Shown here: positions 51,805 through 60,518 of the stretch, piece by piece
Layout: the number at the start of each line of letters is the position of its first letter
Numbering within the stretch: position 1 is the stretch's first letter
Assembly (NCBI RefSeq): GCF_900088825.1
Contig: NZ_LT592171.1
Coordinates: 1,538,109 to 1,602,108 of the forward strand
From: Thiomonas delicata
Lineage (GTDB): Bacteria; Pseudomonadota; Gammaproteobacteria; Burkholderiales; Burkholderiaceae_C
DNA length: 64,000 bases
Reading direction: 5' to 3'
Program-made: the position numbers and the translations under genes
Notes under the pieces: generated by a model
What the model was told of the DNA's origin: nothing
Seen by the model: the letters and a program-made list of their open reading frames with translations, nothing else
Databases searched by the model: none

Positions 51805-52686
51805 ATGCCCATGCCCCAAGCCATCACCAAAGCCGTCTTTCCCGTCGCCGGCCTCGGCACGCGTTTTCTGCCCGCCACCAAGGCCACGCCGAAGGAGATG
51901 ATGCCGGTGGTCGACAAACCGCTGATCCAGTACGCCGTGGAGGAGGCCTATGCCGCGGGCATCACCGAAATGATCTTCGTCACCGGGCGCCACAAGCGCG
52001 CCATCGAGGACCACTTCGACACGGCCTACGAGCTGGAACATGAACTCGAGGCCGCCGGCAAGTCCGCGCTGCTGGACGTGGTGCGCAGCGTCAAGCCGGC
52101 CGACGTGCAGTGCGTGTTCGTGCGCCAGCCCGTGGCCAACGGTCTCGGCGCGGCCGTGCTGTGCGCGGAGCGGCTGGTCGGCAACGAGCCCTTCGCCGTG
52201 CTGCTCGCCGACGACTTGCTGGTGGGGACGCCTCCCGTGCTGGCGCAGATGGTCGAGATCCATGGCCGCCACGGGCGCAGCGTTATCGCCACCGAGGACG
52301 TGCCGCGCGAACACACCCGCCGCTACGGTATCGTCAGCGGTCAGGAAATCACGCCGGGTCTGACCTCGCTGTCGGGCATCATCGAAAAACCCGCGCCGGA
52401 ACATGCGCCGACCACCCAGGCGGTGGTGGGCCGCTACATCCTCAGTTCCCGCGTGTTCCACCATCTCAACAACGCCAAGCCTGGCGCCGGCGGAGAAATC
52501 CAGCTCACCGACGGCATCGCCGCGCTGCTGGCCGAGGAAGCGGTGTACGCCTACCGGTACAACGGCCGCCGCTTCGACTGCGGCAGCAAGGCCGGCTACC
52601 TCGAAGCCACGGTGCAACTCGGGCTCGAACACCCCGAAGCCGGGCCGGCCTTCGCCGAGTACATCAAGAACCTGAAGCTGGCGTAA
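51805..52686 (+). CDS. galU: UTP-glucose-1-phosphate uridylyltransferase
   Basis: GalU makes UDP-glucose for lipopolysaccharide and other glycans. The 293-residue protein has the nucleotidyltransferase signature [18 protein letters not shown] and [14 protein letters not shown] near the N-terminus, LLADDLLVG with the metal-binding Asp, GIIEKP and [11 protein letters not shown]. The ATG at 51805 ([16 protein letters not shown]) has CGGAG upstream; an internal ATG at 51811 is possible. It converges on the TusA-like gene. Confidence 0.95.
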
Positions 52687-52704
52687 GGCGGGCAGAACCC
52701 CGCG

Positions 52705-52727
52705 CCCGGTGTTTCAAGAACACCGGG
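52705..52727. terminator. terminator-like hairpin between convergent galU and the TusA-like gene
   Basis: CCCGGTGTT (52705-52713) and AACACCGGG (52719-52727) form a perfect 9-bp stem with a 5-nt loop in the 43-bp convergent gap. It would act on both strands, but neither side has a T-run, so termination strength is uncertain. Confidence 0.55.
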
Positions 52728-52729
52728 TC

Positions 52730-52972
52730 TCAGCGCCGGCGCAGCACGTGGGCAAAGCCGGCATCGGCCTCTTTCTGCTCGACCAGTTCGTTGCCGGTCT
52801 GCCGCGCAAAGGCCTGGAAGTCGCGCACCGAGCCGGGGTCGGTCGCCAGCACGCGCAGCAACTGCCCGCTTTGCATGCCCGCCAAGGCCTTCTTGGCTTT
52901 GAGGATGGGCAGCGGGCAGTTCAAGCCGCGCGCGTCCACTTCCACATCAGCCTTTTCCGCCGCTGCGTTCAT
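52730..52972 (-). CDS. TusA-like sulfur-carrier (SirA family) protein
   Basis: This 80-residue protein has the TusA fold signature: VDARGLNCPLPILKAKKAL with the single sulfur-carrying Cys (C19) in the CPxP motif, then LRVLATDPGSVRDFQAFARQTGNEL. Such proteins carry persulfide for tRNA thiolation, or for sulfur oxidation in thiotrophs, where they associate with rhodaneses and DsrE/Hdr systems. No dsrE or hdr gene is nearby, so the role is undecided. It is divergent from mbfA and the start ATG at 52972 gives the normal length. Confidence 0.88.
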   Translation of the reverse strand: MNAAAEKADVEVDARGLNCPLPILKAKKALAGMQSGQLLRVLATDPGSVRDFQAFARQTGNELVEQKEADAGFAHVLRRR

Positions 52973-53087
52973 GTCCACGGTCGTCCCCTTGTGTTGTCGC
53001 GTTCGATGAGGTGATTCTAAAAGTTCAATGGCCGCGCGAAGGTGTCGGGCCGACAATAGCCATGACGCCACTCCACACACCGTCGCC

Positions 53088-54098
53088 ATGGCCATTGCAT
53101 CCTGGTTCAATTTCCCGGTACGGCCCGGCCGAGAATCGGCCGGCCTGAATTTTTCCGATCTGGGCGAACAGCAGATCCTCAGCCTGGCCATCGCGCTGGA
53201 AGAGGATGACGCCCGCATCTACAACACCTATGCCGACACCCTGGCCGGCGATTATCCCGACACCGCCCGACTGTTCCGCGGCATGGCCGCGGAGGAGGAC
53301 GGCCATCGCCACCGCCTGATCGAACTCTACCGCGAGCGCTTCGGCGAGCGCATCCTGCTGATCCGGCGCCAGGACGTGCGCGGCTTCATCGAGCGCAAGC
53401 CCTTGTGGCTGATGCAGCCGCTGGACCTGGAGAAGATCCGCGCCCAGGCCGAGATCATGGAGGCCGATTCCCGGCGCTTCTACGCCCAGGCCGCGCGCCA
53501 CACCACCGACGCCGCCATCCGCCAACTGCTCGGCGACCTCGCCGCCGAGGAAAGCAGGCATGAATCGAAGGCCGAGACCCTGGGCGACAAGTTCATCACC
53601 CCAGGGGCCGTGCGCACCGAACGCCAGACCCAGCGCCGCATGTTCGTGCTGCAGTTCATCCAACCCGGCCTGGCCGGCCTGATGGACGGCTCGGTCTCCA
53701 CCCTCGCGCCGCTGTTCGCCGCCGCCTTCGCCACGCACAACACCTGGAGCACCTTTCTGGTGGGCCTGGCCGCCGCCATCGGCGCCGGCATCAGCATGGC
53801 CTTTGCCGAGGCCTTGTCCGATGACGGGGCGCTGACCGGCCGCGGCAGCCCGGTGCTGCGGGGCGGCATCACCGGCCTGATGACCACCCTGGGCGGCCTC
53901 GGGCACACCCTGCCCTACCTGATCCCGCAATTCCACATCGCCACAGCCATCGCCGTCGCGATCGTGATCGCCGAACTCGGCCTCATCGCCTGGGTGCGCA
54001 AGCGCTACATGGACACGTCCTTCGGCCTGGCGGTGCTGCAGGTGATCGTGGGTGGCGCGCTCGTCTTCACCGTCGGCGTTCTCATCGGCAACGCCTAG
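53088..54098 (+). CDS. mbfA: MbfA-type iron exporter (ferritin-like domain fused to VIT1 domain)
   Basis: The 336-residue protein joins an N-terminal ferritin-like domain (about residues 20-170) to a C-terminal VIT1/CCC1 membrane domain. Its metal-binding acids appear in IALEEDDARIY, MAAEEDGHRHR, AEIMEADSRRFY and LAAEESRHES. The VIT1 part (from about 185) contains PGLAGLMDGSVSTLAPLF and AGISMAFAEALSDDG, with four or five helices. This fusion is the membrane-bound ferritin A described in rhizobia, which exports iron under excess iron or peroxide stress. No obvious Fur or Irr box was found upstream. Confidence 0.9.
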   Translation: MAIASWFNFPVRPGRESAGLNFSDLGEQQILSLAIALEEDDARIYNTYADTLAGDYPDTARLFRGMAAEEDGHRHRLIELYRERFGERILLIRRQDVRGFIERKPLWLMQPLDLEKIRAQAEIMEADSRRFYAQAARHTTDAAIRQLLGDLAAEESRHESKAETLGDKFITPGAVRTERQTQRRMFVLQFIQPGLAGLMDGSVSTLAPLFAAAFATHNTWSTFLVGLAAAIGAGISMAFAEALSDDGALTGRGSPVLRGGITGLMTTLGGLGHTLPYLIPQFHIATAIAVAIVIAELGLIAWVRKRYMDTSFGLAVLQVIVGGALVFTVGVLIGNA

Positions 54099-54144
54099 CG
54101 CCGAAGCGGCCAAGCCGCCGGGAGGCATGTCACCCCCCGGGGAA

Positions 54145-54179
54145 GGCACGCATCTCGCCGGCCGATGCAGGGCCGTGCC
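54145..54179. repeat. imperfect hairpin between convergent mbfA and tsdA
   Basis: GGCACGCATC (54145-54154) pairs with GATG (54164-54167) and CGTGCC (54174-54179), leaving a six-base bulge. It ends 2 bp before the tsdA stop on the minus strand. No T-run is present on either strand. Confidence 0.35.
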
Positions 54180-54181
54180 GA

Positions 54182-55096
54182 TCATGGAATCAGATGGTCG
54201 CCGCGAATGGTGTCGACGTCGAGGCCGAACATCTTGAAATTGCTGCGCACCGTGTGCTTTTCCTCGAGCACCTTGGAGTTGTAGTAGCCCATCTCGCTTC
54301 GCGGCAGCAAATGGTCCTGCAGATTGAAGTTCGGTCTGGGCTGCGCATCGACGTACAGCGTGACGTCCACCGCTTCCTGCTTGGTCAGATTCGCATTGCC
54401 GAGCGGCATATTGGATTCGACCCAGCTGGCCATTTTGTTGAGCTTGCTCATGCCCGCTCCCGTGTTGTAGCTGTCCTGGCCCCAAAGCGGCGGGAAATTC
54501 CCGACGCCTTGGCCGTTCTCGGCGTGGCAGGCCAGGCATTTCTGCTGGTAGACCTTCTGCCCGTTCACATAGCTCTCATGCGTCGCCTGCTTGATGAGCG
54601 GCACCACGTCCTTGTCCGGCCAGGTGGCGGTGAAGTAAGGCGTCACGGGTTTCTTGGCGTTCATCTTCATCGGCTGGCCCTCGGACAGCCAGGTGATGTA
54701 GGTCGCCATGGCGATCGAGGCTTCGGTGTCGATGATCGGACGCTTGCCGTTCATGCTGCGCATGAAACAGTTGTTGATGCGATCCTGCAGCGTCTGCACG
54801 GTTTTCTCGCGCTCTGAATACGCGGGAAACGCGGTGGCCGTGCCCATGAACGTGCCGATGGTCTTGGAGCGACCGCCTTCGAGGTGGCAACTCGTGCACT
54901 GGAGCTTGTTGCCCACCAGATCCTTGGTCAGCGGCTGGGTGTTGGTATGCATGATGATGTCCTCGCCGAGCTTGACCATGCGCCCAAGCTCCCCCTCCGG
55001 GTATTGCGTCGGGGGGTTCGGAACCTGTGCCACTCCCGCCGCCAGAGCCTGGCCCGCCACCGTCAACGCGAACATCGCGACCCACTGTGCTTTCAT
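54182..55096 (-). CDS. tsdA: thiosulfate dehydrogenase TsdA (diheme cytochrome c)
   Basis: The 304-residue protein has a Sec signal (residues 1-20) and two haem-c motifs, CTSCH (67-71) and CLACH (187-191), so it works in the periplasm. RINNCFMRSMNGK places C110 where TsdA enzymes have the unusual Cys axial ligand of haem 1; a Met near 222 or 230 (MPLG) would ligate haem 2. TsdA couples two thiosulfates to tetrathionate and passes electrons to other cytochromes. A TsdA has been characterised from Thiomonas. The partner cytochrome TsdB and sox genes are absent nearby. GGGGA precedes the ATG. Confidence 0.92.
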   Translation of the reverse strand: MKAQWVAMFALTVAGQALAAGVAQVPNPPTQYPEGELGRMVKLGEDIIMHTNTQPLTKDLVGNKLQCTSCHLEGGRSKTIGTFMGTATAFPAYSEREKTVQTLQDRINNCFMRSMNGKRPIIDTEASIAMATYITWLSEGQPMKMNAKKPVTPYFTATWPDKDVVPLIKQATHESYVNGQKVYQQKCLACHAENGQGVGNFPPLWGQDSYNTGAGMSKLNKMASWVESNMPLGNANLTKQEAVDVTLYVDAQPRPNFNLQDHLLPRSEMGYYNSKVLEEKHTVRSNFKMFGLDVDTIRGDHLIP

Positions 55097-55265
55097 TTCA
55101 TTTCCCCATGGTTGTTTCCGCAGATGTCTCCTCCACAGGACCTGAAATTTTTCGTGTGGAACGGCAAAAACCCGACAACGCATGCCTGTTTCGCCGCCCA
55201 CCTTGGCCCTCGGCACCCTGCGCAACGTGCAGAGCTCAGTCTAGGGACGCGCAATATGTTTCTAT

Positions 55266-55279
55266 TTGCGTCACGTCAA
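55266..55279 (-). promoter_or_regulatory. candidate FNR-like site in the tsdA promoter
   Basis: Read towards tsdA, TTGACGTGACGCAA matches TTGAT-N4-ATCAA at 7 of 10 positions. Exactly 22 bp downstream is TAGACT (55243-55238), a 4/6 -10 match, giving class II spacing and a start near 55231, about 135 bp before the ATG. The match is degenerate and was noticed by eye. Confidence 0.32.
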
Positions 55280-55362
55280 CCATTCGCGGTGTTGTGTCCA
55301 TGGGGCCACAAACACGCTCCTCGCCTTGGGCCCGGAACGGTTGCAGCGTTCTGCGGCAAGGT

Positions 55363-56472
55363 TCAACCGTGGCGATGGCGGTGATGCACATCCGGGAAAT
55401 GGGCGTGGCTGTGGGTGACTGGCGCGTGGGCATGCGGGTGGCTGTGCCGCGTGCCGGGCGGCAGCGCGGGTTCGTGAACGTGGTCGTGATGGCCATCATC
55501 GCGCGGGCCGCCGTGGACATGGCTGTGGTCGTGCGTCAGCGGCCTATGCGTATGAAGATGCGCATGGCGCTCGCTCACGTGCAGCCAGACGCCCAGCGCC
55601 ATCAGCAACCCCGCCAGCAGCAGCGGTATCGTCAGCGGTTCGCCGAGCAGCAGCACGGCCAGCAGCGCGCCGAAAAACGGCGCCACCGAAAAATAGGCCC
55701 CTGTGCGCGCCGTGCCCAATTGCCGCAGTGCCACGACGAACAAGGCCAGGCTGACTCCATAGCTGGCAAATCCCAGCGCGGCCGCCATCGCGGCCACGTC
55801 CGGTTGCGGCAGGCGCGCTCCCAGGAACAAAGCCAGCAGAAGATTGGTGGCGCCGGCCGCCAGGCCCTTGGTCATGGCGATGAAACCGGCATCGGCCAGC
55901 GCCACCTTGCGCGTGAGATTGTTGTCCAGCCCCCAGCCCAGACAGGCGCCGAGCACGGCCATCACAGGCCAGAGCGCGCTCCAGTGCAGGTGCGCGCCAT
56001 CCTGCGGCCAGCTCAGCACCAGGCCGCCCGCCACGATCGCCAGCATGCCCAGCGCGATGCGGCGATCGACGTTCTCGCGAAACACGAACCAGGCCAGCAA
56101 GGCGGTGAACACGCCTTCGGCGTTGAGCAGCAGCGAGGCCCCCGTGGCCGGCATCGCCGACAGCCCGGACATCAGGAGCACGGGTGCCGCCACGCCACCC
56201 GCCAGAATGGCGCCGGCCAGCCATGGCCATTCGCCCCGCTGCAGGCGCGCGCGGGGCGAATCCGGATGGCGCAGCCGGCGCACGCCGAGCCATGTCGCCA
56301 AACCCAGACCGGAGCCGAGGTAAAGCAGCGCCGCCAGCATCCAGGGACTGGTTTCGGCCAGCAGCAGCTTGGCCAGCGGAGTGCTGGCGCCGAACAACAG
56401 GGCCGCCAGCATGGCGGTGGCAATGCCCGACGACTGGGCCAGGGACGGCAGCGGGGTTTTGGGTGTCGACAT
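55363..56472 (-). CDS. EamA/DMT-family permease with a histidine-rich C-terminal tail
   Basis: The 369-residue protein has about ten helices in two EamA repeats (ATAMLAALLFGASTPLAKLL and ACLGWGLDNNLTRKVALADA), ending near residue 300. A roughly 70-residue soluble tail follows with 23 His, arranged as HxH, HHDH and HSHPHAH clusters. That tail resembles the metal-buffering loops of zinc and nickel transporters, so transport or sensing of a divalent metal is possible. The family normally moves organic metabolites, and no metal-transport motif is seen in the helices. It lies upstream of tsdA on the same strand and divergent from the ArgO gene. Confidence 0.85.
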   Translation of the reverse strand: MSTPKTPLPSLAQSSGIATAMLAALLFGASTPLAKLLLAETSPWMLAALLYLGSGLGLATWLGVRRLRHPDSPRARLQRGEWPWLAGAILAGGVAAPVLLMSGLSAMPATGASLLLNAEGVFTALLAWFVFRENVDRRIALGMLAIVAGGLVLSWPQDGAHLHWSALWPVMAVLGACLGWGLDNNLTRKVALADAGFIAMTKGLAAGATNLLLALFLGARLPQPDVAAMAAALGFASYGVSLALFVVALRQLGTARTGAYFSVAPFFGALLAVLLLGEPLTIPLLLAGLLMALGVWLHVSERHAHLHTHRPLTHDHSHVHGGPRDDGHHDHVHEPALPPGTRHSHPHAHAPVTHSHAHFPDVHHRHRHG

Positions 56473-56604
56473 GCGGTGGGCTCAGCGGGTGGGCACAGTA
56501 CGAAAAAGCCTCGGCTGCGAGAATAGGCGATTCAGCCCGGGCCAGCCCGATACGACGCATTCCTCCATGCATTCGGCCCCGGCTCTTGCCGTTTCGCCCG
56601 CCCC

Positions 56605-57219
56605 ATGCACACGAACGCCTCAACCTACTTCTACGGGTTTTCTCTCGGCCTATCGCTGATCCTGGCCATCGGCGCGCAAAACGCCTTCGTGCTCAAGCAG
56701 GGGCTCAAAGGCGAGCATGTGTTCTGGGTCAGCCTGACCTGCGCGGTCTCGGATGCCGTCTTGATTGCCGCCGGCGTCTCCGGTTTTCATGGACTCATCC
56801 TGCGTGCGCCCTGGCTGGAGCCGGCCGGCCGCTATGCCGGTGCGGCCTTCCTGCTGTGGTACGGCGGGCGCAGCCTGCTGGCTGCCCTCAGGTCTTCGTC
56901 CACGCTGCAACCCATGGGGAGCGACCCGGCAACGCTCTGGCAGACACTCGCCGCGTGCCTGGCCTTCACGTTCCTGAATCCGCACGTTTATCTGGATACG
57001 CTGCTGCTGATCGGGTCCGTGTCCACCCAGTTTCCCGGGCACGGGTTCGAATTCGGCCTCGGCGCGGCGTCGGCCTCGTTCGTCTTCTTTTTCGCCCTGG
57101 GCTACGGCGCGCGTCTGCTGCGGCCGCTGTTCCAGAGGCCCCGGACGTGGCAGGTGCTGGAACTGGTCATCGGCCTGACCATGTGGAGCCTGGCCTACGG
57201 TCTGCTGCACGGGAGCTGA
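56605..57219 (+). CDS. LysE/ArgO-family amino-acid exporter
   Basis: The 204-residue protein has about six helices and the LysE family start FSLGLSLILAIGAQNAFVLKQGL, then FTFLNPHVYLDTLLLIGSVS, the conserved Asn-Pro-His segment seen in ArgO and LysE proteins. It exports basic amino acids, most likely arginine or lysine, to avoid toxic accumulation. A regulator of the ArgP type is not adjacent. It converges tightly on cysM (15-bp gap) and is divergent from the His-rich DMT gene. Confidence 0.88.
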   Translation: MHTNASTYFYGFSLGLSLILAIGAQNAFVLKQGLKGEHVFWVSLTCAVSDAVLIAAGVSGFHGLILRAPWLEPAGRYAGAAFLLWYGGRSLLAALRSSSTLQPMGSDPATLWQTLAACLAFTFLNPHVYLDTLLLIGSVSTQFPGHGFEFGLGAASASFVFFFALGYGARLLRPLFQRPRTWQVLELVIGLTMWSLAYGLLHGS

Positions 57220-57234
57220 ACGCCGATCCGGACA

Positions 57235-58137
57235 TCAGGCCGGAAAAACCCCGGTGCTCAGATAGCGGTCGCCACGATCGCAGACGATGAACACGATGGT
57301 GGCGTTTTCCACCTCGCGCGCGAGGCGCAGCGCCACCTCGCAGGCGCCGGCCGCGCTGATGCCGCAGAACAAACCCTCCTCGCGCGCGAGGCGGCGCGCC
57401 ATGGCCTCCGCCGCCGCCTGGCTGACGTACTCCAGCCGGTCCACGCGCTGCGGTTCGTAGATCTTGGGCAGATACTCCTGCGGCCATTTGCGGATGCCGG
57501 GAATGCGCGAGCCCTCCTCCGGCTGCGCGCCGACGACCTGCACCTCCGGGTTCTGCTCCTTCAGATAGCGCGACACGCCCGTGATCGTGCCCGTGGTGCC
57601 CATGGCCGAGACGAAATGGGTGATGCGGCCTTCGGTGTCGCGCCAGATCTCGGGACCGGTGGTTTCGTAGTGAACGCGCGGGTTGTCGGGGTTGGCGAAC
57701 TGGTCGAGCATCAGGCCCTTGCCCTCGCGCTGCATCTGCTCTGCCAGATCGCGCGCGTATTCCATGCCGCCCGCCTTGGGCGTGAGGATGAGATCGGCGC
57801 CGAACGCCTTCATGGTCTGCGCGCGCTCGATGCTCAGGTCCTCGGGCATGATCAGCACCATGCGGTAGCCGAGGATGGCTGCAGCCATCGCCAGCGCGAT
57901 GCCGGTGTTGCCGGACGTGGCCTCGATCAGCACGTCGCCCGGCTTGATCTGGCCGCGCTCCTGCGCGCGGCGGATCATCGAGAGCGCCGGGCGGTCCTTC
58001 ACCGAGCCCGCCGGATTGTTGCCTTCGAGCTTGCCGAGAATGACATTGCCGCGCCGCGCGTTGTCGGCGCCCGCGACGCGTTGCAATTGAAAGAGCGGCG
58101 TGTTGCCGATGGTCTGATCGAGCGTGAGGTAAGGCAT
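57235..58137 (-). CDS. cysM: cysteine synthase B
   Basis: CysM makes cysteine from O-acetylserine and can use thiosulfate to give S-sulfocysteine. The 300-residue PLP protein has the lysine in NPAGSVKDRP (K47), the substrate loop EATSGNTGIAL (about 72-82) and AMGTTGTITGVSRYL. The motifs EEGSRIPGIRKWPQEYLP and SQAAAEAMARRLAREEGLFCG fit CysM rather than CysK. The ATG at 58137 has AAGGAG eight bases upstream. A thiosulfate-using enzyme fits a thiosulfate-oxidising host, but this is only circumstantial. Confidence 0.94.
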   Translation of the reverse strand: MPYLTLDQTIGNTPLFQLQRVAGADNARRGNVILGKLEGNNPAGSVKDRPALSMIRRAQERGQIKPGDVLIEATSGNTGIALAMAAAILGYRMVLIMPEDLSIERAQTMKAFGADLILTPKAGGMEYARDLAEQMQREGKGLMLDQFANPDNPRVHYETTGPEIWRDTEGRITHFVSAMGTTGTITGVSRYLKEQNPEVQVVGAQPEEGSRIPGIRKWPQEYLPKIYEPQRVDRLEYVSQAAAEAMARRLAREEGLFCGISAAGACEVALRLAREVENATIVFIVCDRGDRYLSTGVFPA

Positions 58138-58183
58138 GGTTTTTTCTCCTTGGTGCATTCTGGCATGCGGCGACGGATCCGGC

Positions 58184-59326
58184 TCAGGCAACCCAGCGCA
58201 GCACCAGCCACACGAGCGGCGCGCACACCAGCAAGAACGGCACGCTGATGCGGTGGAACCGTGCCAGAGAGCCGGGACTGCCCTCCAGACGCAGGGCGAT
58301 GAGATTGGCCAGCGATCCGATGCCCAGGCCGAATCCGCCCACATTGACCGCGGCCGCCAGGAGCATGACGTCGTGCGCGCCATGCTCCAGGAGCACGGTG
58401 GCCGGCACATTGCTGATGACCTGCGACAGCGCGATGGCCGCGATATACAGCACCCCGGGTTGCTGCAGGCCGAGGCCCTGCACGGGCAGAATCTGCGCCA
58501 GGTGGCCGAGGCCCACGAACATCGCGGCGAACGTCGCCAGCAACATCCAGTCGACGCGTTGGAGAACCTCGCGAAACATGACCGCGAACACCGCCAGGAC
58601 CAAGGCCGCGGCGCCTTGCGCATGATGTCCCTGCAACAGCCCGACCACGACCAGCAGCAACAAGCCGGCCGTCACGCCCAGGGCGGGACGCGGCAGGGCC
58701 TCGGCCGCGGTGCGCGCCGAGGTTTGCAGGGTCAAGGTGCGGGCGTCGAACATGAACCACACGAGCGCCAGCAACAAGGCCAGCATGACCGCGAAAGTCG
58801 GCAGCAGGTGCAGCATGAACCCGGGCATCGACAGGCCCGAGCGTTGCCACAGCAAGAGGTTCTGCGGGTTGCCGATGGGGCTGAGCGTGGAGCCGGCGTT
58901 CACCGCCAGGGCCTCGAAGATCACCAGGCGCTGCACCGGCAGACGGGCTTCCCGGCCGAGCGCCACCGTCAACGGCACCACCAGGAACAGGCTCACGTCA
59001 TTGGTCAGCAGCATGGCCAGCAAGGCCGACGCCAGCACCAGCAGCAGCGCAAGCCCGCGCAGGCTCCGCGTGCGCAGGGCCGTGTAGCGCGCCGCGCGTT
59101 GCACATAACCGCTGGCGCGTATGCCCTCCACGGTGACGAGCAGGGCGGCGAGACCCAGCAGCGTCGGCAGGTCGAGCCAGTTGCGGTACAGGGCCCATGG
59201 ACGGGGATCGGCCAGCGCCAGGAACAGCGCCAGCAAACCGAAAACCCCCAGCAGGCGCTCTCGTCTCAGAAAGCCGCGCAGGCGGGAAAGAAGCCCGCGC
59301 ACGATCTCAGGCGTGAGTGCCGGCAT
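58184..59326 (-). CDS. ArsB/NhaD/SLC13-superfamily anion or cation permease
   Basis: The 380-residue protein has about ten helices and the superfamily hallmarks LLTNDVSLFLVVPL and NAGSTLSPIGNPQNLLLW in the first half. The pair is partly repeated as SQVISNVPATVLL and NVGGFGLGIGSLANLIAL in the second half. Members include arsenite, citrate/dicarboxylate and Na+/H+ transporters; the substrate here is unknown. No arsR or arsC is nearby. The ATG at 59326 overlaps the 3' end of hemY by 20 bp, suggesting translational coupling. Confidence 0.82.
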   Translation of the reverse strand: MPALTPEIVRGLLSRLRGFLRRERLLGVFGLLALFLALADPRPWALYRNWLDLPTLLGLAALLVTVEGIRASGYVQRAARYTALRTRSLRGLALLLVLASALLAMLLTNDVSLFLVVPLTVALGREARLPVQRLVIFEALAVNAGSTLSPIGNPQNLLLWQRSGLSMPGFMLHLLPTFAVMLALLLALVWFMFDARTLTLQTSARTAAEALPRPALGVTAGLLLLVVVGLLQGHHAQGAAALVLAVFAVMFREVLQRVDWMLLATFAAMFVGLGHLAQILPVQGLGLQQPGVLYIAAIALSQVISNVPATVLLEHGAHDVMLLAAAVNVGGFGLGIGSLANLIALRLEGSPGSLARFHRISVPFLLVCAPLVWLVLRWVA

Positions 59327-60518
59327 CCTCACCCGAGAGGTCGAGCGCGGCCAGGCGCCAGTGGCGCCCCGCCTGATCCTCGCGCTCGATGCGCTCCTGC
59401 AGACGCGCCAGGGCGGTGTGGACGCTGCCACGCAGGCGGCGCTCGTCAGGTTGGCACAGCTCGAGCGCCTTGCTCAGATACTGCTGCGCCTTGCCCCAGA
59501 GTTCAAGCTCGATACAGGCTCGCGCGGCCAGGAACACGGCTTGCGCCTCCTGCGGCCAACGGTCGACCCAGGCCTCGGCCTGCGCGACGAAACCGGCATC
59601 GATCCCGGCCAGCATGCCGCGCAGCGCGGGCATCAGCGCGGCCGGTTCCGCGCTCGGCACGCGCAGGGCCTCGATCAGCAGGGCGCGCGCCTGGGCCATA
59701 TCGCCGGCCAAGGCAAAACCGCGGGCCCCGGCCACCGCGATCTGGGCATCGAGACGCAGCGCGACGTCGAAAGACTTCCAGAGCCGGCGCAAGGTCTCGG
59801 CGTCGTGGTTGGCCTGCCGGATCAATCCGAGCGCCGCGCCATGGATCATCGCCTGGGCCGCGGCCTCGTGCAGGCCATGATGCTTGCGCAAGGTCATGGC
59901 CAGCCGCATGACTTCGGCGTGGTCCTGCAACGCCCGCGCGGCCGCAAGCGCCAGACGCATGGTCTGCGTGCGGCGCTGCATGCCGCCGGAGAGGGTGCGC
60001 AGGACATTCTGTGCAGCTCGCGCGTCGCGCGCCTCGATCTGCCATTCGGCCTGCAGCAGGGCGCCGGTTTCGCGCGCCGCGGTCGGCAGGGCTTCGAGAT
60101 AGGCGTCGCGCCGCTCGTAGGCCTGCATGGCCTGGGCGGCCTGGGCGGCGGTGAGCAAGGCGCCGGGCTTGAAGTTTTCCGCCTCGGCGGCCCTTCCCGC
60201 GGCGCGTTCGGCGCGGCGGAAGCGGCCGCCCTGCAGATGCATGATCGCTTCATGCAGCGCCGTCGCCGCGACCTGCAAGCGCCTGCGCGAGCGGAACAAC
60301 GCGGCGGCACGCGGCAATCGCAGCAGCAGGGTGAAAGCCCGGATCGCGATGTAGAAAAGCGCGAAACTCGCCAGCACCAGGAGCGCGGCCAGATTCAGCG
60401 ACAGGTCGATGCGATAGGGCGGCAGAAAAATGGCGACATTGCCCGGCCGGCCGCTCGCCGCCATGGCCAGCAATGCCGCGGTCAGCCCCAGCGCCACGAC
60501 CCAGGCGAGCCAGCGCAT
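59307..60518 (-). CDS. hemY: HemY (tetrapyrrole-associated TPR membrane protein)
   Basis: The 403-residue protein has two N-terminal membrane helices (about residues 3-22 and 40-63), then a helical TPR-like domain (GRFRRAERAAGRAAEAEN and repeats). It matches the proteobacterial HemY family encoded behind hemX. Its role in haem synthesis is not settled; it is not the protoporphyrinogen oxidase also called HemY in Bacillus. The start overlaps the hemX stop by one base (ATGA). Intact. Confidence 0.92.
   Translation of the reverse strand: MRWLAWVVALGLTAALLAMAASGRPGNVAIFLPPYRIDLSLNLAALLVLASFALFYIAIRAFTLLLRLPRAAALFRSRRRLQVAATALHEAIMHLQGGRFRRAERAAGRAAEAENFKPGALLTAAQAAQAMQAYERRDAYLEALPTAARETGALLQAEWQIEARDARAAQNVLRTLSGGMQRRTQTMRLALAAARALQDHAEVMRLAMTLRKHHGLHEAAAQAMIHGAALGLIRQANHDAETLRRLWKSFDVALRLDAQIAVAGARGFALAGDMAQARALLIEALRVPSAEPAALMPALRGMLAGIDAGFVAQAEAWVDRWPQEAQAVFLAARACIELELWGKAQQYLSKALELCQPDERRLRGSVHTALARLQERIEREDQAGRHWRLAALDLSGEDAGTHA

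Follow-up and report, generated by a model that had tools for sequence, protein, structure and literature searches.

The window analyzed here, a 64,000-nucleotide stretch of the Thiomonas delicata genome, carries on its reverse strand a gene whose product joins a DMT-type (EamA) membrane core to a C-terminal tail dense in histidine (Table 1). EamA (PF00892, E 1.1e-27) is the sole Pfam domain found in this protein at E 0.001. The 23 histidines that the preliminary description had counted in a 70-residue tail on an EamA permease are indeed present in residues 300-369, and its coordinates were right, with the tail running exactly from 55366 to 55581; over residues 298-369 the count rises to 24 in 72. 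At the histidine frequency of the family's membrane core (0.63%), the binomial probability of at least 24 in 72 is 8e-35. If a typical protein is assumed to contain about 2.3% histidine, the probability is 1e-21.

Table 1. Features of the locus, with positions numbered along the window
Feature	Position	Strand	Basis
cnrT-like gene, 369 aa, DMT (EamA) membrane core and His tail	55363..56472	-	ORF translation, Pfam, CnrT homology
EamA repeat 1, residues 15-154	56011..56430	-	EamA matches
EamA repeat 2, residues 168-297	55582..55971	-	EamA matches
His-rich tail, residues 298-369, 24 His, predicted cytoplasmic	55366..55581	-	His count, alignment, charge rule
His module 1, residues 303-331, HxHxHxH-x4-HxHxHxH, short insert, then D-x-HHxH	55480..55566	-	alignment; predicted beta hairpin 303-309/312-319
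His module 2, residues 343-366, HxHxHxH-x4-HxHxHFPDVHHRH	55375..55446	-	alignment; predicted beta hairpin 342-349/352-358
mbfA, iron exporter gene, next but one to the cnrT-like gene	53028-54098		NCBIfam equivalog above cut-off
LysE/ArgO-type exporter gene, divergent, 132 bp from the cnrT-like start (context gene)	56605..57219	+	Pfam LysE above cut-off; below NCBIfam equivalog cut-offs
cysM, cysteine synthase B (context gene)	57235..58200	-	domain scan

A survey of EamA proteins in the same genome gave 27 matches that resolved into 15 ORF translations representing 14 proteins, one of them cut two ways. The richest stretch of 66 residues holds 23 histidines in the window protein versus 1-8 in the other recovered translations, none of which has such a tail, in keeping with the earlier statement that EamA proteins normally go without one. 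A whole-protein search found no second copy of the cnrT-like protein in this genome. Since the tail is kept in relatives, as described below, it is neither a frame artifact nor a product of low-complexity chance.

Neighborhood of the cnrT-like gene

Beyond cysM lies a gene for a CitMHS-type permease on the same strand as the cnrT-like gene, and on the other side of the cnrT-like gene a c-type cytochrome gene is followed by mbfA. No metal gene directly adjoins the window copy, the neighbors being argO, cysM, and the c-type cytochrome gene. Neither cnrCBA nor the regulators cnrYXH are found beside it, which means that the CnrT-type protein here is not encoded within a cnr operon, and a search of the genome for CnrX, run without a positive control, returned no match. 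The genome contains several RND permeases, the best CnrA-like one 39% identical and on another contig, and an RND gene 28% identical to CnrA lies about 14 kb from the cnrT-like gene. It also contains a full-length match to the [NiFe]-hydrogenase large subunit together with a second, partial one, which suggests that nickel probably needs both acquisition and control in this organism. No riboswitch was matched in Rfam up to E 1 across 52500-59500, no sigma-70-like site was found by a simple scan of 55150-56800, and no inverted repeat was found in 56440-56640.

In five relatives cysM is found upstream on the same strand, at a distance of about 40 bp in locus L002, about 365 bp in L030 and L032, and 2.6 kb in L031 and L035; in the window the LysE/ArgO-type gene stands between cysM and the cnrT-like gene. 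Cysteine synthesis may thus be connected with nickel in some way. At four other loci (L038, L039, L052, and L111) a gene for a YnfA/UPF0060 small membrane protein lies directly 3' of the cnrT-like gene, and in the first three of these a MerR regulator gene is adjacent as well.

Genes for RND, membrane-fusion, TolC, CDF, P-type ATPase, MerR, or HupE proteins occur in the flanks of at least 29 of 80 loci, a raw count made without control neighborhoods and a lower bound obtained from simple ORF-call clusters at the best 80 of 427 loci, in which the MerR, membrane-fusion, and TolC genes may serve other substrates. The remaining 51 have no such neighbor within the flanks examined. In a hand-picked set of nine plasmid copies, RND or other metal genes lie close to five, two are accompanied by an outer-membrane efflux gene and nothing more of the kind, and the surroundings of the last two show no metal link.

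A CnrT-type transporter core

The window protein aligns by BLASTP with CnrT of Cupriavidus metallidurans CH34 (plasmid pMOL28) at 55% identity (195 of 353 columns), rising to 58.8% over core residues 27-297, and the tail is aligned to its end. In CH34, cnrT is the last gene of cnrYXHCBAT and is annotated in the nickel class. This homology bears out the proposal that the protein is a metal-linked member of the EamA family. Such a link is nevertheless no surprising departure for the family, as CnrT is already counted as a metal exporter of the DMT family in a passage of PMC7019866 that places cnrT there, and a metal-linked DMT protein of the CnrT kind is already in print for the relative. Other passages list DmeF, CnrT, and CnrCBA for Ni(II) export (PMC11647595) and describe CnrT as an inner membrane exporter (PMC9045368). 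In parts of PMC4803752 and PMC12699271 cnrT is called a cation diffusion facilitator, a label that we rejected for the window protein because Cation_efflux (PF01545) is absent from it and only EamA is found at the threshold given above. Annotation often hides such proteins: a tblastn search of plasmids returned 50 records, of which five are labeled "nickel diffusion facilitator CnrT," one "cnrt," and 26 say only "DMT family transporter," a name that points to carriers of metabolites.

A tree of 129 cores groups the window protein with five relatives that include a Thiomonas intermedia bin (support 100/98) and places CH34 CnrT in another branch. It is for this reason best regarded as a member of the CnrT family rather than a proven CnrT ortholog, and its substrate could differ. 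The preliminary description had compared the histidine clusters to those of zinc or nickel transporters; we prefer nickel, and perhaps cobalt, to zinc solely on the basis of homology.

If the tail gave the exporter another main metal, such as zinc, cobalt, or copper, then the presence of RND, CDF, and P-type ATPase genes among the neighbors in other genomes would fit as well, and His-rich tails do bind several divalent ions. However, CnrT and NreB/NcrA, the groups with a related core or a related tail, are both nickel systems by annotation and in papers, and we consider a different principal metal improbable.

An AF2 model of the window protein built with 67 family sequences has a mean pLDDT of 91.7 and helices consistent with ten membrane segments. 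Lysine and arginine together average 1.9-3.1 per loop in loops 2, 4, 6, and 8 and 0.03-0.40 in loops 1, 3, 5, 7, and 9, a positive-inside pattern that would place both termini, and hence the tail, in the cytoplasm. The modeled protein should have ten membrane helices with cytoplasmic termini, as in CnrT-type proteins. In a VIA-align comparison of the whole model the best match is LicB (Z 27.2, rmsd 2.4, 249 residues aligned), and 5i20, which we take to be YddG, scores Z 22.7. The identity of an MFS nickel transporter was also considered for the window protein and rejected, as only EamA is found in it and DMT transporters top the structural list.

We tabulated 19 core positions that are invariant or nearly so in the family, setting 20 family rows against 14 rows drawn from the remaining EamA proteins of this genome, among which one protein counts twice. 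Eleven of the 19 (N117, E119, C177, D183, N185, D194, K202, N210, Y238, R256, and Y260) are constant in all 20 family rows, and the same residue appears in at most one of the 14 others. These family-specific residues are candidates for lining an ion path.

The same comparison bears on a reading in which the substrate of the core is an organic molecule, metal-chelating or otherwise, and the tail only senses or buffers metal. According to a passage of PMC7438024, zincophore gene clusters often include an EamA efflux system, and the cnrT-like gene has cysM and a LysE/ArgO-type exporter gene close by. An exporter of the zincophore type would be encoded beside genes for metallophore synthesis; the nearest neighbors scanned here are of other kinds. 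On the other hand, the nearest named relative, CnrT, is counted as an ion exporter in the passages cited above, and the 11 core residues, N117, E119, D183, and K202 among them, are family constants that are rare in the genome's other EamA proteins. We think that export of an organic molecule is unlikely. We also consider metal export, with a tail that gathers metal on the cytoplasmic side, more probable than a sensing role.

A two-module histidine tail and its distribution

The tail consists of two tandem modules of the form HxHxHxH-x4-HxHxHx[H/P]D-x-HHxH joined by a variable spacer. This pattern fits all 27 aligned sequences, CnrT and the window protein included, with a short insert in module 1 of some. 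At 135 related loci, which include some near-duplicates (for example, L003/L035, L004/L031, and L006/L054), module 1 fits 132, module 2 fits 128, and both fit 128. The idea of a metal-linked tail was to fall if the tail were absent in all orthologs, and the opposite was found. Seven loci are exceptions: L061, L076, L080, and L086 have small changes or a broken end, L169 and L170 are distant actinobacterial proteins with shortened tails, and L127 has no tail.

In an alignment of 67 rows, identity to the window protein averages 98.5% in the 24 histidine columns versus 34% in the other 48 tail columns; several rows stop early with the scan match, which lowers the last histidine columns to 91-93%. 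The invariant residues other than histidine are E301, D326, P360, and D361. This fixed spacing of histidines, with the residues between them mostly free to drift, is what a metal site predicts and is unlike mere compositional bias.

The tail has no Pfam hit of its own, and a PDB sequence search at E 0.01 with either the tail profile or the whole-family profile found no solved relatives. In the whole-protein AF2 model it contains four strands, the two predicted hairpins of Table 1, with pLDDT of 72-88 across the tail blocks and 48 in the last block. Modeled alone, the tail gives the same four strands (pLDDT 81-89 in the strand blocks, mean 73, pTM 0.42). A Foldseek search with this tail-alone model produced no meaningful match; the structural lists obtained with the whole model barely probe the tail, which may yet have a known fold.

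Named relatives among the best 80 of 427 loci, found with a full-length query of genome contigs that favors tailed relatives, come from Pseudomonadota, Actinomycetota, Planctomycetota, Chloroflexota, Acidobacteriota, and Rokubacteria, several of them metagenome bins. A search with the core only, run to counter this bias, matched 18 of 398 genomes of the phylum including the window's own, and the matched locus carries the tail in 16 of the 17 others. With the tail profile, 23 of 398 genomes match; the tail is attached to this EamA core in 17 of them, and in the other six to an MFS-type protein or part of one. Seven of 396 genomes match in the phylum to which L046, a record titled Microbacterium, belongs, all with relatives of the core at identities of at least 36%; Pfam was run on two of these. 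L169 and L170, from this phylum, are distantly related EamA-type proteins whose tail is cut down but still ends in LPDIHHRH; it may represent a precursor or a decayed version of the module.

The sole tail-less relative found, L127 (genome G280), has a CnrT-like core with 49% identity that ends just before the tail, and in the core tree it sits among tailed proteins on a long branch. Its existence indicates that the tail is not strictly needed, and as a natural tail-less form it could be used as a control.

Some placements among the relatives are odd. L097 has a Planococcus title, yet its protein sits among Microbacterium sequences, and the nearly identical L080 and L086 come from bins labeled Proteobacteria and Acidobacteria; these may be mislabeled or mixed assemblies, or cases of recent transfer. 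In a Methylococcales bin (L075:5980-8943) the CnrT-like ORF runs in frame into a heavy-metal P-type ATPase as a single frame of 987 residues. Stand-alone genes in L079 and L050 match the ATPase part at about 90% identity, and the joined frame may reflect either a true gene fusion or a mistake in the assembly or the sequence.

Eight matches to the tail profile are not EamA proteins. Pfam, run on six of them, assigned all six to MFS_1, and two fragments of 157 (L154) and 59 (L156) residues are of the same kind. Over its first 363-402 residues, one of the MFS proteins (L153) shares 61-62% identity with plasmid proteins labeled NreB or NcrA/NirA. The MFS tails score 22.5-37.1 bits and the window protein, itself a row of the profile, scores 68, all after large HMMER composition-bias corrections. 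As decoys, 48 other His-rich ORF translations (at least 14 histidines in 66 residues, from any frame of the examined loci and not all real genes, picked once ORFs showing either of the two patterns at the C terminus of the CnrT and MFS groups had been set aside) score no higher than 3.3 bits, and none of 200 shuffled tails was reported. These low decoy scores and unreported shuffles rule out chance histidine richness behind the MFS matches.

By these sequence comparisons the module is common to the CnrT family and a subgroup of NreB-like MFS proteins (L149-L155 and L159), whether through shared descent or convergence. It was not found in NreB of pKAZ5 (-1.7 bits) or in NcrA of a Citrobacter plasmid (1.1 bits). 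In six of the MFS proteins (L149:265-1698, L150:1486-2934, L151:259-1686, L152:1468-2976, L153:247-1680, and L155:304-1695) the CnrT-type module is followed by an end of their own, of the kind FVIDxHHxxWP. That the tail is not for metal at all, its histidines instead sensing pH or serving assembly, is very improbable: histidine titrates near neutral pH and the tail is shortened in L169 and L170, but the constant spacing amid freely varying residues is that expected of a metal site, and the same module is found again at the end of MFS proteins that have nickel transporters as relatives.

Proposed function and comparison with known systems

We put at roughly three in four the probability that the window protein belongs to the CnrT type of exporters in the inner membrane and carries Ni(II), and perhaps Co(II) too, with a cytoplasmic tail that binds nickel reversibly. 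Nickel as the substrate, the direction of export, proton coupling, and metal binding by the tail are all features that we infer. If this is how the protein works, nickel entering the cytoplasm would be caught by the two histidine modules, whose reversible binding would provide a local store, buffer free nickel, and raise the nickel concentration at the mouth of the transporter. The DMT core would then export nickel to the periplasm, probably in exchange for protons. With its gene apart from any CnrCBA-like pump, the protein would act alone or pass nickel to separately encoded RND pumps.

The two-module pattern offers a simple signature that separates CnrT-type proteins from many other EamA proteins, and the fixed spacing of 24 histidines across phyla, seen again in an MFS group, makes of a loosely described "His-rich tail" a definite domain that is open to direct tests of metal binding and role. 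Earlier work reportedly exists on truncation of the NreB tail and on cnrT mutants. We did not find this anatomy, or its sharing with NreB-like MFS proteins, described in the part of the literature on CnrT, NreB, NcrA, and His-rich EamA/DMT proteins that was covered here. A more tentative idea, for which we would offer somewhat less than even odds, is that the tail is a portable nickel-capture domain, two tandem hairpins of alternating histidines that would become ordered on metal and have been exchanged between the DMT (CnrT) and MFS (NreB-like) folds as a common cytoplasmic loading device.

Among known systems, the solved DMT transporters LicB and 5i20 have the DMT fold in common with the window protein but are only 15-20% identical to it, and the aligned region stops at residue 299-304, before the tail. 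RcnA belongs to another membrane family, although it too resembles the window protein in being a nickel exporter with a cytoplasmic His-rich segment. In RcnA this segment is an internal loop, and the tail profile gives the RcnA of L158 no more than 1.4 bits; a passage of PMC11247825 describes RcnA as a nickel/cobalt efflux protein with such a segment. NreB and NcrA (NirA) are nickel resistance proteins with histidine-containing C termini, and the subgroup named above carries the CnrT-type module, but their MFS fold is unrelated to DMT. The closest counterpart is CnrT of CH34, which has the same DMT/EamA core and the same two-module histidine tail with a PDxHHRH end; its gene closes an operon for nickel and cobalt that also encodes a sigma factor and an RND pump, whereas the window gene lies beside neither.
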